Shown in pieces: positions 3,780 through 63,833 of a DNA stretch of 64,000 nucleotides. The stretch's first letter is position 1, and each line of letters starts with the position of its first letter. Source of the DNA: Actinacidiphila oryziradicis (GTDB taxonomy: Bacteria; Actinomycetota; Actinomycetes; Streptomycetales; Streptomycetaceae); contig NZ_SUMC01000002.1 of assembly GCF_005047355.1 (NCBI RefSeq), positions 62,001 to 126,000 of the forward strand. Reading direction: 5' to 3'. Both the position numbers and the translations under genes were made by a program. Under the pieces are notes generated by a model. That model was not told where the DNA came from, made no database searches, and saw only the letters and a program-made list of their open reading frames with translations.

Positions 3780-4946
3780 ATGCCCGCAGACCTCGCCGTC
3801 ATCGGACTCGGCCACACCGGACTTCCCCTCGCCCAAGCCGCCACCGCCGCCGGCGTCCGCACCATCGGCTACGACACCGACCCGCGCACCGTCGACGCCA
3901 TCAACGCCGGCCGGATCCCCTCCGGCGCCCTGGCCGCCGCCGACGTACGCCGCATGCTCAAGGACGGCTTCCGCGCCACCGCCGAACCCGCCGTACTCGG
4001 CCGGGTACGCACCGCCGTCATCTGCGCACCCACCCCGGACGTCGCCGCCGCCGGCCGCATCCTCGCCGCGCACCTGCGGCCGCACACCACAGTCGTCCTC
4101 GAGTCGGCCGTACGCCCCGGAACCACCGAAGAACTGCTCCGACCCATCCTCGAAACCTCCGGCCTCCGGGCCGGCCGCGACTTCCACCTCGCCTACTCCC
4201 CCAGCCGCTTCCCCGGCGCCCCCAAGGTGATCGCCGGCTGCACCCCCGCCTGTACCGAGGCGGCCGCCGTCTTCTACGGCCGCTTCGCCGAACGCGTCGT
4301 ACGCGCCCGCGGGCCGCGCGAGGCCGAGACCGTCAAGCTCCTCGAAACCAACTACCGGCACGTCAACATCGCGCTCGCCAACGAGATGGCCGTCTTCTGC
4401 CACGACGCCGGCATCGACCTCTGGGACGTCATCCGCTGCGCCGAGACCAAGCCCTACGGCTTCCACGCCTTCCGCCCCGGCCCCGGCGTCGGCGGCCCCG
4501 GCGGGCCTCTCCCGCTCCCCCTTCCCCTCGTCGAGCTCGCGCAGCAGATCAACGCACGCATGCCGAGCTACGTCGTCCAGCGGGCCGCGGCCCTCCTCAA
4601 CGAGCACGGCAAATCACTGCGCGGCGCCCGAGTGCTCCTGCTCGGCGTCACCTACAAGGCCGACTTCCCCGACCAGACCGGCGCCCCCGCCCGCGAAATC
4701 GGCACCCTCCTGGCCGGCATGGGCGCCCACCTCAGCTACCACGACCCCTACGCCCCCACCTGGCACCTCCTCGACCGCCCCGTCCCCCGCGCCGATTCCC
4801 TCTGGGACGCCGCCGCCGACGCCGACCTCACGGTGCTGCTGCAGCACCACCGCACGTACGACCTGCAGGGCCTCGCCGTAAAGGCCCAGCTCCTGCTCGA
4901 CACGCGAGGCGCCGCCCCGGCGGGGGCGGCTGCGACCCGGCTGTAG
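3780..4946 (+). CDS. Nucleotide-sugar dehydrogenase homologue, catalytic Cys missing
   Basis: The 388 residues have the three-domain layout of UDP-glucose/UDP-ManNAc dehydrogenases. An N-terminal NAD-binding motif GLGHTG (residues 9-14) comes first. The central helix follows with ETVKLLETNYRHVNIALANE, where Lys186 matches the conserved substrate-site Lys. The C-terminal UDP-binding domain contains GVTYKAD. Active enzymes of the UDP-ManNAc branch carry PGPGVGGHCIPVDP around the catalytic Cys. Here PGPGVGG (233-239) continues PGGPLPLPLPL, so His becomes Pro240 and Cys becomes Gly241. The normal two-step oxidation to a uronic acid therefore looks impossible; a binding or regulatory role is one option. 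The ATG at 3780 has GAGAGGA about 13 nt upstream. An in-frame start at 3738 is less likely. Confidence 0.82.
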   Translation: MPADLAVIGLGHTGLPLAQAATAAGVRTIGYDTDPRTVDAINAGRIPSGALAAADVRRMLKDGFRATAEPAVLGRVRTAVICAPTPDVAAAGRILAAHLRPHTTVVLESAVRPGTTEELLRPILETSGLRAGRDFHLAYSPSRFPGAPKVIAGCTPACTEAAAVFYGRFAERVVRARGPREAETVKLLETNYRHVNIALANEMAVFCHDAGIDLWDVIRCAETKPYGFHAFRPGPGVGGPGGPLPLPLPLVELAQQINARMPSYVVQRAAALLNEHGKSLRGARVLLLGVTYKADFPDQTGAPAREIGTLLAGMGAHLSYHDPYAPTWHLLDRPVPRADSLWDAAADADLTVLLQHHRTYDLQGLAVKAQLLLDTRGAAPAGAAATRL

Positions 4947-5093
4947 AAGGGGCCCGGGGTGTCGGTCAACGACTCTCCCCCAGACTCCGTCCGGGAGGTG
5001 CCCGCACCTTCCTCCACCCCACCTATTCGCGCGGCCTCTTACTCGGCTGACCCTGAGCAGGGGACGCACAGTCGTGACCGCCATAATGCGCGG

Positions 5094-32888: not shown

Positions 32889-33150
32889 CTAGGGCCTGTC
32901 CGGCCGATCTCCGTGGGAGAAGGAGCGGGGTCTGGCGCCTGTGATCGCAAGGCGGAGGTGGGGGCACCTCCCAGCGGTAGCTGGGGGAGGAGGCGACGCG
33001 ATGGGGGTCCCCCCTGCTCGAGCGGAGCCGAGAGCTTGGTGGGGGCACCTCCCGGACGGAGTCTGGGGGAGAGTCGTCGACTGACGACAACGCCGCGAGC
33101 GCTGGTGCCAGGGCACGCGACGCCGCGGAGATCGGCCGGACAGGCCCTAG
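32889..33150. mobile_element. MITE-like element, copy C (full length)
   Basis: A 254-bp element (32893-33146) flanked by perfect CTAG duplications (32889-32892 and 33147-33150). The terminal inverted repeats are identical for at least 20 bp (GGCCTGTCCGGCCGATCTCC). The interior holds two hairpin repeats of the gggggcacctccc type (about 32959-32989 and 33038-33073) and the gtcgtcgactgacgac segment shared with copy B. It has no ORF of its own. The right-hand CTAG supplies the stop codon of glmM. Confidence 0.85.
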
Positions 33151-44001: not shown

Positions 44002-44108
44002 GGTCTTTCTCCTTCATTCCTGCACCGGCCGTATCAGGTACCGGTGTCAGTACCTCTGAGGCGGTCGCCTCAGCGGGGGGTGTGCGGGGGCAGGGCCCCC
44101 GCACGGAC

Positions 44109-60769: not shown

Positions 60770-60976
60770 TCAGCCCTTTGCCGCGTACGAGACGAACTCG
60801 GCCCACGCCTGCGATGTGAACGCGAACTGCGGACCCTGGGGGTCCTTGGAGTCGCGGACGTGGACGGCGCCGGGGGCGGTTGCGATCTCGACGCAGGAAG
60901 GACCGTCGTCGGTGCTGTAACTGCTCTTGAACCACTCCAGCGCGGAACCGGCTCTGGCAGAGGGCTTGAGGGTCAT
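60770..60976 (-). CDS. DUF397 domain protein
   Basis: 68 residues: WFKSSYSTDDGPSCVEIATA, VHVRDSKDPQGPQFAFTSQA, WAEFVSYA, the complete DUF397 motif. These small proteins are usually encoded with an Scr1-type helix-turn-helix regulator and an RsbW-like ATPase. BldB and the WhiJ partners belong here and affect development. Its start overlaps the regulator stop by 4 nt. Confidence 0.93.
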   Translation of the reverse strand: MTLKPSARAGSALEWFKSSYSTDDGPSCVEIATAPGAVHVRDSKDPQGPQFAFTSQAWAEFVSYAAKG

Positions 60977-61839
60977 GTCTCTCCCAGCACTTTCTGGATG
61001 ACGGCCAGCGATTCACGCGGCGTATGAGCCTGCGCCCGGATCATGCCATACCGCATCTCAAGGATCTGGACCTCCCGGGGATCGGCGATCAGGCGACTGG
61101 TGAGCTGCACTTCATTCAGCCCGACCGCTGTGCCGTCCTTGAGTTTCAGGACGCGCAACGAGCCGCCGAGCCCGGAGTGCTCCTCGACCGCCGTGGGCAT
61201 CACCTGGATCTCGACGTACCGCAACTGGCTGGCCTCCAGCAGGTGTTCGAGTTGGCGTCGCAACACCATTCTGCCCCCGATCGGCCGCCGGAGCGTCGCC
61301 TCTTCCTGGACGAAGGTCAGCAGTGGGGCGGGCCGCCGCTCGTAGATCTCCTGGCGAGCCATGCGAGCAGCCACCAGCCGCTCAAGTTCGTCCTCTCCGT
61401 ACGCCGGGCGCCGCAGGCCAAGGAGCGCCCGTGCGTACTCCTCCGTCTGCAAGAGGCCATCCACGACGGTGCTTGCATAGGAGCCCAGCTCTCCCGCCTC
61501 ATACTCCAGCTTCGCGACGTCCCGCACCTTCTTCGGGTACCGGGCCTCGGCCACGTCATCCTTCATCGCGGCGAGCTTGCCGCCGGCCCCCAGCACCTCG
61601 TCCGCCTTGTCCAGGAACTCCGGCTTGGGGACCCGCCGCCCCCGCTCGACGGACGAGACCATCTCCTCGCCATACCCGATGGCCGCCCCGAACTCGATCC
61701 GCCGCAGCCCCGCCGCTTCCCGCCAGAGCTTGATCTGCCGCCCGACCGCCTTCATCACGGCCCCGGAATCGTCGTCCTCCAGCCCGGCGTCCCAGTGAGA
61801 GCCGTCCGCCCCGTCCGCTCCGTCTGCCGTGTAGTCCAT
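60973..61839 (-). CDS. Helix-turn-helix regulator with DUF5753 (Scr1/WhiJ type)
   Basis: 288 residues from MDYTADGADGADG. The N-terminal XRE helix-turn-helix reads QIKLWREAAGLRRIEFGAAI with GYGEEMVSSVERGRRVPKPE. The DUF5753 effector domain follows (YEAGELGSYASTVVDGLLQT, EEYARALL, ...RRQLEHLLEASQLRYVEIQV). It probably forms a regulatory pair with the DUF397 protein, possibly antagonist and regulator as in whiJ loci. GGGGGCGG lies directly before this ATG; in-frame ATGs at 61854 and 61887 are possible starts. Confidence 0.9.
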   Translation of the reverse strand: MDYTADGADGADGSHWDAGLEDDDSGAVMKAVGRQIKLWREAAGLRRIEFGAAIGYGEEMVSSVERGRRVPKPEFLDKADEVLGAGGKLAAMKDDVAEARYPKKVRDVAKLEYEAGELGSYASTVVDGLLQTEEYARALLGLRRPAYGEDELERLVAARMARQEIYERRPAPLLTFVQEEATLRRPIGGRMVLRRQLEHLLEASQLRYVEIQVMPTAVEEHSGLGGSLRVLKLKDGTAVGLNEVQLTSRLIADPREVQILEMRYGMIRAQAHTPRESLAVIQKVLGET

Positions 61840-62079
61840 ACCGCCCCCGCTCATTTGGCACCCGCGTACGGCAATCACTGTCCGCACTCGGCTAGTTACC
61901 CCGAAGCGTAAACACGGCGGGGCGCGTTGATGACATTGGCCCAGAAAATCACCCGCCCCGGGCCTCGGTGGGGTTATTTCGGCATGGGTGGCGTGCGGGA
62001 GCGCTGGCTCCCTTCGGTCGCGAAGAAAAAGGCGCTCCTACGGGAAGGGGGAGGGGCGCTGCCGCTTGTCACCGGGCCG

Positions 62080-62250
62080 CCGGGCCGGTGGGTTGCGGAG
62101 GTCAAGGCGGCTTGTGCGGCATCGGTTCGGTGGGTGTCTGGGGTCTCGTTGCCGGATCCTGGTAGAGATGGTCGGTGGCGACGCCTGTTGTCCGTGGGGG
62201 GTTGCGCTGCCGTAACCGGCGGCTGTCGGGTGCTTGGTGGCTTGGCCCCG
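62080..62250. repeat. Left arm of a 171-bp perfect inverted repeat
   Basis: Identical to the reverse complement of 62996-63166 over all 171 bp. Weaker similarity extends outward on both sides (the GCTCCCTT-GGTCGC block at about 62006 and 63229) and inward through GGCGGCTT-like sequence and AACGTT motifs. No gene is visible from 61840 to 63413. Confidence 0.9.
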
Positions 62251-62332
62251 TTGTCGACGGGGCGGGCGGGGGCCCGGCGGCTTCCCTCTCGGCCGGTGGG
62301 CGGATGGGCGGGGGCCCGGGCCCGGCGGGGGC

Positions 62333-62423
62333 GCAGAAACGTTCCGGCGGGGGGCGAGTGGTTGCTCTCCCGACCAGTGGGCGGCCGGCGTTCATGCGGG
62401 GGGATGCAGAAACGTTCCGGCGG
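62333..62423. repeat. Two direct copies of an AACGTT-centred motif
   Basis: GCAGAAACGTTCCGGCGG at 62333-62350 and 62406-62423. An inverted copy lies at 62907-62924 and a degenerate inverted copy (GGCAAAAACGTTCCTGCC) at 62861-62878. A variant with ACGATT is at about 62750-62770. They lie inside the inverted-repeat region and could be protein-binding sites. Confidence 0.7.
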
Positions 62424-62614
62424 AGCGCCATACCGGGTTCACCACCCCCGGGGCAGCATTTACCCCACTTTGGGCATACCTTTTGGGCCCATCTGGATTG
62501 TCAGTGCTGAAAGTGAAGAGATATGCCCGAATTGCCAATTTCTGGACTTCACTAACTGCACTCAAATCCGTCCCAGGGGTCGCCGGTGGCCCGCCAGCGA
62601 CCCCACAGCCCGCC

Positions 62615-62699
62615 CGCCTGCGTGCACTACAGCCCATGCCTGCGTACACCCCGGCGTGGCGGGGGTGTACGCAGGCATGGGCTGTAGTGCACGCAGGCG
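62615..62699. repeat. Hairpin with perfect 38-bp stem
   Basis: Arms 62615-62652 and 62662-62699 pair without mismatch around a 9-nt loop (GGCGTGGCG). The arms contain GTGCACTACAGCCCATGCC. The hairpin is centred at about 62657, close to the midpoint (62623) of the large inverted repeat. It is far longer than terminators in this window. It could be a structured RNA, a recombination or replication site, or a folded mobile element. Confidence 0.85.
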
Positions 62700-62995
62700 C
62701 GAGAGGAATTGACCGATATGCCGGATGCGGGGAAGCCTCCTCGCTCCCGCTGAAACGATTCTGCGGCGGAGCGGATCCATGAGGTGCCCCGATGAGACAG
62801 CGACACTACGAGCGGGGCCCGTGAGAGTGTCCCATTCGGGCACCTAATGTCCCGATCCCCGGCAAAAACGTTCCTGCCCCGAACCCGGAGGAGAGCCACC
62901 CGCCCTCCGCCGGAACGTTTCTGCACCCCCGCGCCTGGACCCCCACCCACCGGCCGGGAGGGCAGCCACCGGGCCCCCGCTCACTTCCCCCGCCC

Positions 62996-63166
62996 CGGGG
63001 CCAAGCCACCAAGCACCCGACAGCCGCCGGTTACGGCAGCGCAACCCCCCACGGACAACAGGCGTCGCCACCGACCATCTCTACCAGGATCCGGCAACGA
63101 GACCCCAGACACCCACCGAACCGATGCCGCACAAGCCGCCTTGACCTCCGCAACCCACCGGCCCGG
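62996..63166. repeat. Right arm of the 171-bp perfect inverted repeat
   Basis: Exact reverse complement of 62080-62250. Together the arms enclose 745 bp, so homologous recombination between them would invert 62251-62995. Confidence 0.9.
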
Positions 63167-63413
63167 GAGCCAACCGACGAGACGAGCCCCCCTCCTCCCC
63201 CTCCGCAGTTGCGTCTTTGATCTTTGCGACCAAAGGGAGCAAAACGCACCCGCACCCGGCCAATCAGAAATGGCGAGACCGGCAACCCCGACCACCCCAA
63301 CCACCCCAACCACGGCGTACCGGCCGGACAGGTCCAGGCCACGGACGGACAGTCACGCTCCGTACAAGCCCCACGCCTATCCAGTTGTCACACGCCCGAT
63401 CACGCTAAGTCGC

Positions 63414-63833
63414 GTGAACCAGGAAATCACCAGCCCCGAAACAGCCCCCGCCACCCGCCAGTTCCATGTCCAGCTCTCCGCCACCCGCAGGGGCGCCCGG
63501 CTTGCCCGGCTGCTCGCGACCGAGCAGCTGCGCAGCTGGGGGCTGTCGATCGAGGCGGCGGCACACGTTGTCGCTGAGCTGGCCGCGAACGCGGCGCTCC
63601 ATGGCCGCGTACCGGGCCGCGACTTCCGGCTGACGCTCACCGTCACGAACGCCGGCACACTCCGCATCGAGGTGACGGACGCCCGCGCGGAGCGCCTTCC
63701 GTCTGTCCACCGCGAGGCGCTCCCGGAGGACGAGTCGGGGCGCGGCCTCATGCTCGTGGACGCGCTGGCCGACCGCTGGGGTGTCGCGCCGGGCCCGGCG
63801 CCCTGCAAGACGGTGTGGGCCGAGCTGGGCTGA
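63414..63833 (+). CDS. RsbW-like ATP-binding protein (HATPase_c)
   Basis: 139 residues of a GHKL ATPase domain like anti-sigma kinases. The N-box is VVAELAANAALHG (Glu and Asn of E-x3-N). The G1 box reads IEVTDARAERLP and the G2 box ESGRGLMLVDALADRWG. No sensor or sigma gene is adjacent. The GTG at 63414 starts VNQEITSPETAPATRQ; the open frame upstream is inverted-repeat DNA. It faces away from the DUF397 and helix-turn-helix pair, and the three probably form one regulatory set, as is common in Streptomyces. Confidence 0.88.
   Translation: MNQEITSPETAPATRQFHVQLSATRRGARLARLLATEQLRSWGLSIEAAAHVVAELAANAALHGRVPGRDFRLTLTVTNAGTLRIEVTDARAERLPSVHREALPEDESGRGLMLVDALADRWGVAPGPAPCKTVWAELG

Follow-up and report, generated by a model that had tools for sequence, protein, structure and literature searches.

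A dispersed family of long non-coding palindromes in Actinacidiphila, with one copy in a whiJ/abaA-type spacer

The window, a 64,000-nucleotide stretch of Actinacidiphila oryziradicis DNA, contains a long inverted repeat that is one copy of a multicopy, dispersed, non-coding palindromic element of about 1.32 kb. The element is probably a non-autonomous, non-coding insertion element of the foldback/MITE type with long inverted arms, conserved termini, and a conserved arm core. The family was previously unnamed, and a search of the open-access literature, with subscription journals outside its scope, found no description of it. The preliminary description of the locus had proposed either an uncharacterised palindromic element or a phase-variable switch, and had attributed the identity of the arms to recent duplication or to gene conversion. 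The palindromic element and the recent duplication or conversion of its arms are supported; the switch is not.

Results

Structure of the element

The two 171-bp arms first noticed are identical reverse complements over exactly that length, and the exact match stops at both ends. They are nested in 293-bp arms that are 85% complementary, and blastn extends the arm homology to about 61993–62370 and 62890–63255. The full element is thus wider than the 62080–63166 interval first described, and its ends are placed with an accuracy of about 5 bp. The window has no other exact inverted repeat of at least 40 bp, which excludes a chance origin for the 171-bp arms. Codon usage confirms that the central segment between the arms is non-coding, as had been claimed, and the lower GC content reported around 62455–62560 is also present (46% compared to 70% for the window, in the lowest 0.05% of equal-size windows). 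The arms are predicted to fold as one giant hairpin, and there is an additional near-perfect hairpin in the central segment. The gene caller found no gene inside any complete copy. An Rfam search of the window gave no match in the element; its sole match was the L17 ribosomal protein leader RNA at 44020–44075.

Table 1. Parts of the palindromic element and its flanking genes (window positions)
Feature	Position	Strand	Basis
Complete palindromic element, ~1,318 bp	61965..63282		Sharp homology limits among five copies and insertion point in relatives' spacers
Left terminus TCGGTGGGGTTATTTCGGCATGGGTG	61965..61990	+	Terminal motif CGGTGGGGCCATTTCGGCGTGGGTG
Right terminus, reverse complement CCGGTCTCGCCATTTCTGATTGGCC	63258..63282	-	Five-copy alignment
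Left arm, 85% complementary to right arm	62028..62320	+	
Right arm	62926..63218	-	
Left arm, exact 171-bp part	62080..62250	+	
Right arm, exact 171-bp part	62996..63166	-	
Left arm core, common with A. glaucinigra (GTCTCGTTGCCG ... GCCGTAACCGGCG)	62131..62238	+	Model R1, E 1.9e-24; alignment A1
Right arm core	63008..63115	-	Model R1, E 1.7e-24
Internal motif GCAGAAACGTTCCGGCGG, copy 1	62327..62355	+	
Internal motif GCAGAAACGTTCCGGCGG, copy 2	62400..62428	+	
Internal motif GCAGAAACGTTCCGGCGG, inverted copy	62902..62943	-	
AT-rich block, imperfect dyad (CAGTGCTGAAAGTGAAG ... CTTCACTAACTGCACT)	62455..62571		46% GC over 62455–62560
Central 41-bp hairpin, 3-nt loop	62615..62699		
Flanking gene, WhiJ-type regulator (HTH_31 + DUF5753)	60973..61887	-	Pfam
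Flanking gene, BldB-type DUF397 protein	60770..60976	-	Pfam
Flanking gene, AbaA-type HATPase_c_2 protein	63417..63833	+	Pfam

Copies in the A. oryziradicis genome

The element was used to query the window's own genome and returned 59 matches. A model of the conserved arm core (R1), built from 31 arms of two species (alignment A1), placed 14 arm cores in this genome, spread over nine loci. These are five complete inverted pairs (L009, the window copy, and L010–L013) and four single arms (L014–L017). The copies have sharp ends and are 75–93% identical, which indicates that they are old and gives no indication of current activity. Alignment of the five complete copies reveals abrupt homology limits and a conserved terminus close to CCGGTGGGGCCATTTCGGCGTGGGTG. 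The terminal motif CGGTGGGGCCATTTCGGCGTGGGTG, with up to three mismatches allowed, occurs at nine places in the genome, seven of which are element ends, and the reversed-pattern control gave none. At C223:54797 and C326:58395 the terminal motif stands alone, without a full element. The distinct TCTCGCC-type terminus lies to the right of the central segment in L009 and L012 and to its left in L010; a past inversion or a swap of ends could explain the L010 arrangement.

The internal parts are less uniform. In the five-copy alignment the AT-rich block is mostly present in L012 and L013 and partly present in L011. The central hairpin occurs at about ten loci in the A. oryziradicis genome and is not matched strongly in any other genome of the genus; this limited range rules it out as a wider element. 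At L017 (3400–5000; G000, C235) a partial element is apparently divided by a gene for a 172-residue protein (4089–4604, minus strand), with the central hairpin on either side of it (3946–4011 and 4817–4885) and a tandemly repeated unit carrying the GCAGAAACGTTCCGGCGG motif. At L144 (2890–3000; G000, C326) an isolated element terminus adjoins DNA similar to the right flank of the window copy (63312–63347) and may be what a deletion left behind at another locus of this kind.

Arm identity and pairing

The identity between the two arms of an element is 100% for the window copy and 99% for L011. In the remaining three copies it drops to 92, 88, and 85%, the level seen between elements. High identity in only some of the elements means that homogenisation is sporadic, as expected of arm-to-arm conversion, and these values support the recent duplication or gene conversion proposed earlier. 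Pairing was examined in 20 A. glaucinigra elements, where 94.4% of the arm-arm cells are paired. Twenty-six pairs have changed on both sides, compared to 14.6 ± 2.2 in shuffles and 8–13 with the partners slid. These alignment counts indicate that compensatory changes keep the arms paired in A. glaucinigra, and the retained pairing is explained by either conversion or selection for the hairpin. The ratio of G-U to A-C cells (119 to 64) was discarded as a test of RNA versus DNA selection because the fold favors G-U by construction.

A related family in A. glaucinigra

A. glaucinigra CGMCC 4.1858 was the only species matched by the exact arm pattern among 84,980, in a collection that possibly does not include the window's own genome. 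It has about 60 arm cores that can be paired as 28 inverted pairs and four single arms. Its copies are ~600-bp near-palindromes with almost no spacer, and their two arms differ in both the outer and inner ends (A and B types), which indicates that the unit was copied whole. A search of 395 genomes gave one good match and a weak second match in G025 and weak single matches in G029, G020, and G115. As judged from these matches, the family is limited to a few Actinacidiphila genomes, with stray matches in the rest of the ~400 Streptomycetaceae genomes. Similar DNA was absent from the plasmid and phage collections, and the arm pattern had no match in viral contigs. Alignment A1 contains 41 invariant columns across 31 arms from two species, so the arm core is either constrained or the part that is recognized.

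Placement relative to genes

In A. glaucinigra, 17 of the 28 complete copies lie in convergent spacers, compared to 15 of 135 other neighboring gene pairs at the same loci (p = 4e-10; gene calls came from a simple codon-usage script, and individual calls may be wrong). The distances from stop codon to core are mostly 143–190 nt, which places the element ends roughly 0–45 bp from the stop codons. These data show that the A. glaucinigra copies start right after stop codons and favor convergent gene pairs. Four of the eight flanked copies in the A. oryziradicis genome are also between convergent genes. Seven of the nine A. oryziradicis loci are within 2.6 kb of a DUF397 gene, where about 2.5% would be expected for each (p about 2e-10, in a test chosen post hoc). 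This proximity is not predicted by random insertion and counts against the insertion-element reading. A general association with DUF397 was ruled out, since none of the 13 A. glaucinigra DUF397 matches is near an element; DUF397 proximity is therefore not a property of the family.

Presence and absence between close relatives

Twenty A. glaucinigra copies were compared with the orthologous spacers of a near relative, G025, whose flanks are mostly 90–96% identical. None of the 20 G025 spacers holds a copy of the family, and the comparison indicates that the element is variable between close species. One site (L055/L089) has the element in both species, and an arm has been lost from the G025 copy; this makes at least one copy ancestral. 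A terminator-like hairpin stands where A. glaucinigra has the element in one G025 spacer (L114/L118), and three of the 20 (L119, L125, and L126) hold a different palindromic family, 376–661 bp long. This second family is unrelated to the first and has the inner block CCCCCAGCCTTCGGCCGGGGGGACCCCC (L119, 1307–1793; L125, 1380–1755; L126, 2094–2754). Fragments of it are present at more than a dozen places in G025. The second family also occurs in A. glaucinigra, and two further genomes give weaker matches. Target-site duplications were not visible at the window locus or in the A. glaucinigra/G025 spacers, which are too diverged for exact comparison. The replaced spacers cannot be aligned, which, together with the lack of a visible duplication, counts against the insertion-element reading.

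The window copy and its whiJ/abaA spacer

The HTH/DUF397 pair and RsbW-like gene named earlier as regulatory neighbors are identified by Pfam as WhiJ-, BldB-, and AbaA-type genes. A whiJ-bldB-abaA arrangement has been described for Streptomyces (PMC10294661), and the window trio resembles it, with XRE-HTH (WhiJ), DUF397 (BldB), and HATPase_c (AbaA) types. Comparison of the locus in related strains had been suggested as a check on the switch. In six relatives (G004, G005, G006, G010, G014, and G027) the trio is next to ribosomal genes and, unlike in the window, the spacer is without the element. Measured between matching points, the whiJ-abaA spacer is 282–464 bp in these relatives compared to ~1.6–1.7 kb in the window. 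Subtracting 1,318 bp from the window spacer leaves 279–402 bp, close to each of the six, and alignment with the relatives' spacers puts the insertion point directly after TCACCCGCCCCGGG. These comparisons indicate that the window copy was inserted between the whiJ-type and abaA-type genes.

Immediately right of the insertion point, all six relatives have a tandem pair of CCGTAC-type repeats separated by 9 to 12 bp. They are degraded in the window (63283–63416), beside the insertion. WhiJ9 of S. venezuelae binds direct repeats in such a spacer and activates the neighboring gene (PMC10294661). The degraded repeats and this precedent suggest that the insertion probably altered an operator. The insertion would also have separated the divergent promoters by about 1.3 kb and probably changed how the whiJ/abaA pair is controlled. 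The corresponding spacer of G024 (L141, 1324–2613) contains a different 1.29-kb stretch with an apparent protein-coding frame, indicating that the whiJ-abaA spacer has received DNA more than once.

Discussion

The best-described dispersed palindromes are the REPs and BIMEs, which are very short. REPINs and BIMEs are REP doublets that form hairpins and are dispersed by RAYT Y1 transposases (PMC3116915, PMC2817692). REPs are 20–40 bp long (PMC3733652), carry GTAG/CGTC tags, and usually number more than 100 copies per genome (PMC2817692). The element is likewise dispersed, extragenic, non-coding, and non-autonomous, with inverted pairs that fold into a hairpin. It differs in having arms of ~290–340 bp, a total length of 0.6–1.3 kb, 9–32 loci, and no RAYT with matching arms, and the aligned copies contain no short GTAG/CGTC-tagged REP units of 20–40 bp. 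Unit size and the missing RAYT link place it outside the REPINs. RAYT/Y1 transposases were also rejected as the mover: none of the eight Y1_Tnp loci in three genomes has arms nearby.

MITEs and foldback transposons have long inverted arms, no coding capacity, and sharp conserved ends, and are present or absent between relatives. The element shares all of these properties. It differs in its strong placement after stop codons, in that no target-site duplication was seen, and in that no partner transposase was found: none of the transposases checked has matching ends, and the terminal motif is confined to elements and the two isolated sites. The dispersed copies, inverted terminal arms, lack of an internal transposase gene, and empty sites in relatives point to a foldback/MITE-type insertion element. 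Its copies would be spread by an enzyme supplied in trans, with either the element ends or the folded single strand as its substrate. Insertions would survive where a large hairpin is least harmful, or where it serves as a two-way transcription terminator. The exact 171-bp arms would come from recent arm-to-arm conversion, or fold-back copying, and not from a switching system.

Host function offers a rather unlikely alternative, in which the palindromes serve as outsized bidirectional terminators or insulators that selection maintains and that recombination, not a transposase, moves as whole intergenic cassettes. The convergent spacers filled from right after the stop codons, the arm cores conserved across two species (41 invariant columns), and the pairing kept through compensatory changes are all consistent with such a role, as are the unrelated palindromes in three of 20 G025 spacers and the terminator-like hairpin at the element's position in L114/L118. 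However, nearly all sites are empty in the closest relatives, very few species carry elements, and the window copy separates the starts of two divergent genes, a position in which a terminator would serve no obvious purpose. We also consider it unlikely that several unrelated giant-palindrome families repeatedly land in the convergent intergenic spacers of this clade and replace one another as exchangeable two-way terminators, by an undescribed mechanism that recognizes gene 3' ends without target duplication.

Among the biological explanations, the phase-variable switch ranks last and is very improbable on this comparative evidence. Recombination between the arms would flip 62251–62995 and alter whiJ/bldB or abaA transcription. 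The fim- and Hin-type invertible segments of phase variation consist of inverted repeats around a non-coding segment, as the element does, and its exact arms have sufficient length for homologous recombination; the left-hand TCTCGCC-type terminus of L010, compared to the right-hand one of L009 and L012, would fit an earlier inversion or a swap of ends. Unlike those segments, the element is multicopy and dispersed, most of its copies are not upstream of genes, and it lacks evidence of a recombinase or promoter. The flanking genes examined include no recombinase, and no sigma-70-like promoter was found in 61800–63450, which is weak evidence because the consensus covers actinomycete promoters poorly. 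The other copies, at unrelated loci, have no promoter tie. The many that lie between convergent genes, namely four of the eight flanked copies here and 17 of the 28 A. glaucinigra copies, have no promoter to switch, and the A. glaucinigra copies have hardly any spacer to flip. The empty spacer in six relatives also fits a dispersed insertion and not a switch. An inverted repeat created by mis-assembly has a negligible probability: the fragmented assembly (389 contigs, 6% contamination) speaks for it, but other inverted-pair copies lie on separate contigs, with unique flanking DNA and arms that have diverged, and the 28 inverted pairs of the related family come from an independent assembly of another species.

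The foldback/MITE-type family combines 0.3-kb arms, preserved pairing, gene 3'-end placement, and a sharp difference between species that are about 94% alike. It is a natural system for the persistence of large palindromes in a bacterial chromosome, their spread without a visible transposase, and their possible part in ending transcription. The window copy is a ready test of a developmental whiJ/abaA promoter region split by 1.3 kb. Elsewhere in the window, shorter exact inverted repeats (25 to <40 bp) connect positions 4969, 22017, 32889, and 33040–33131.
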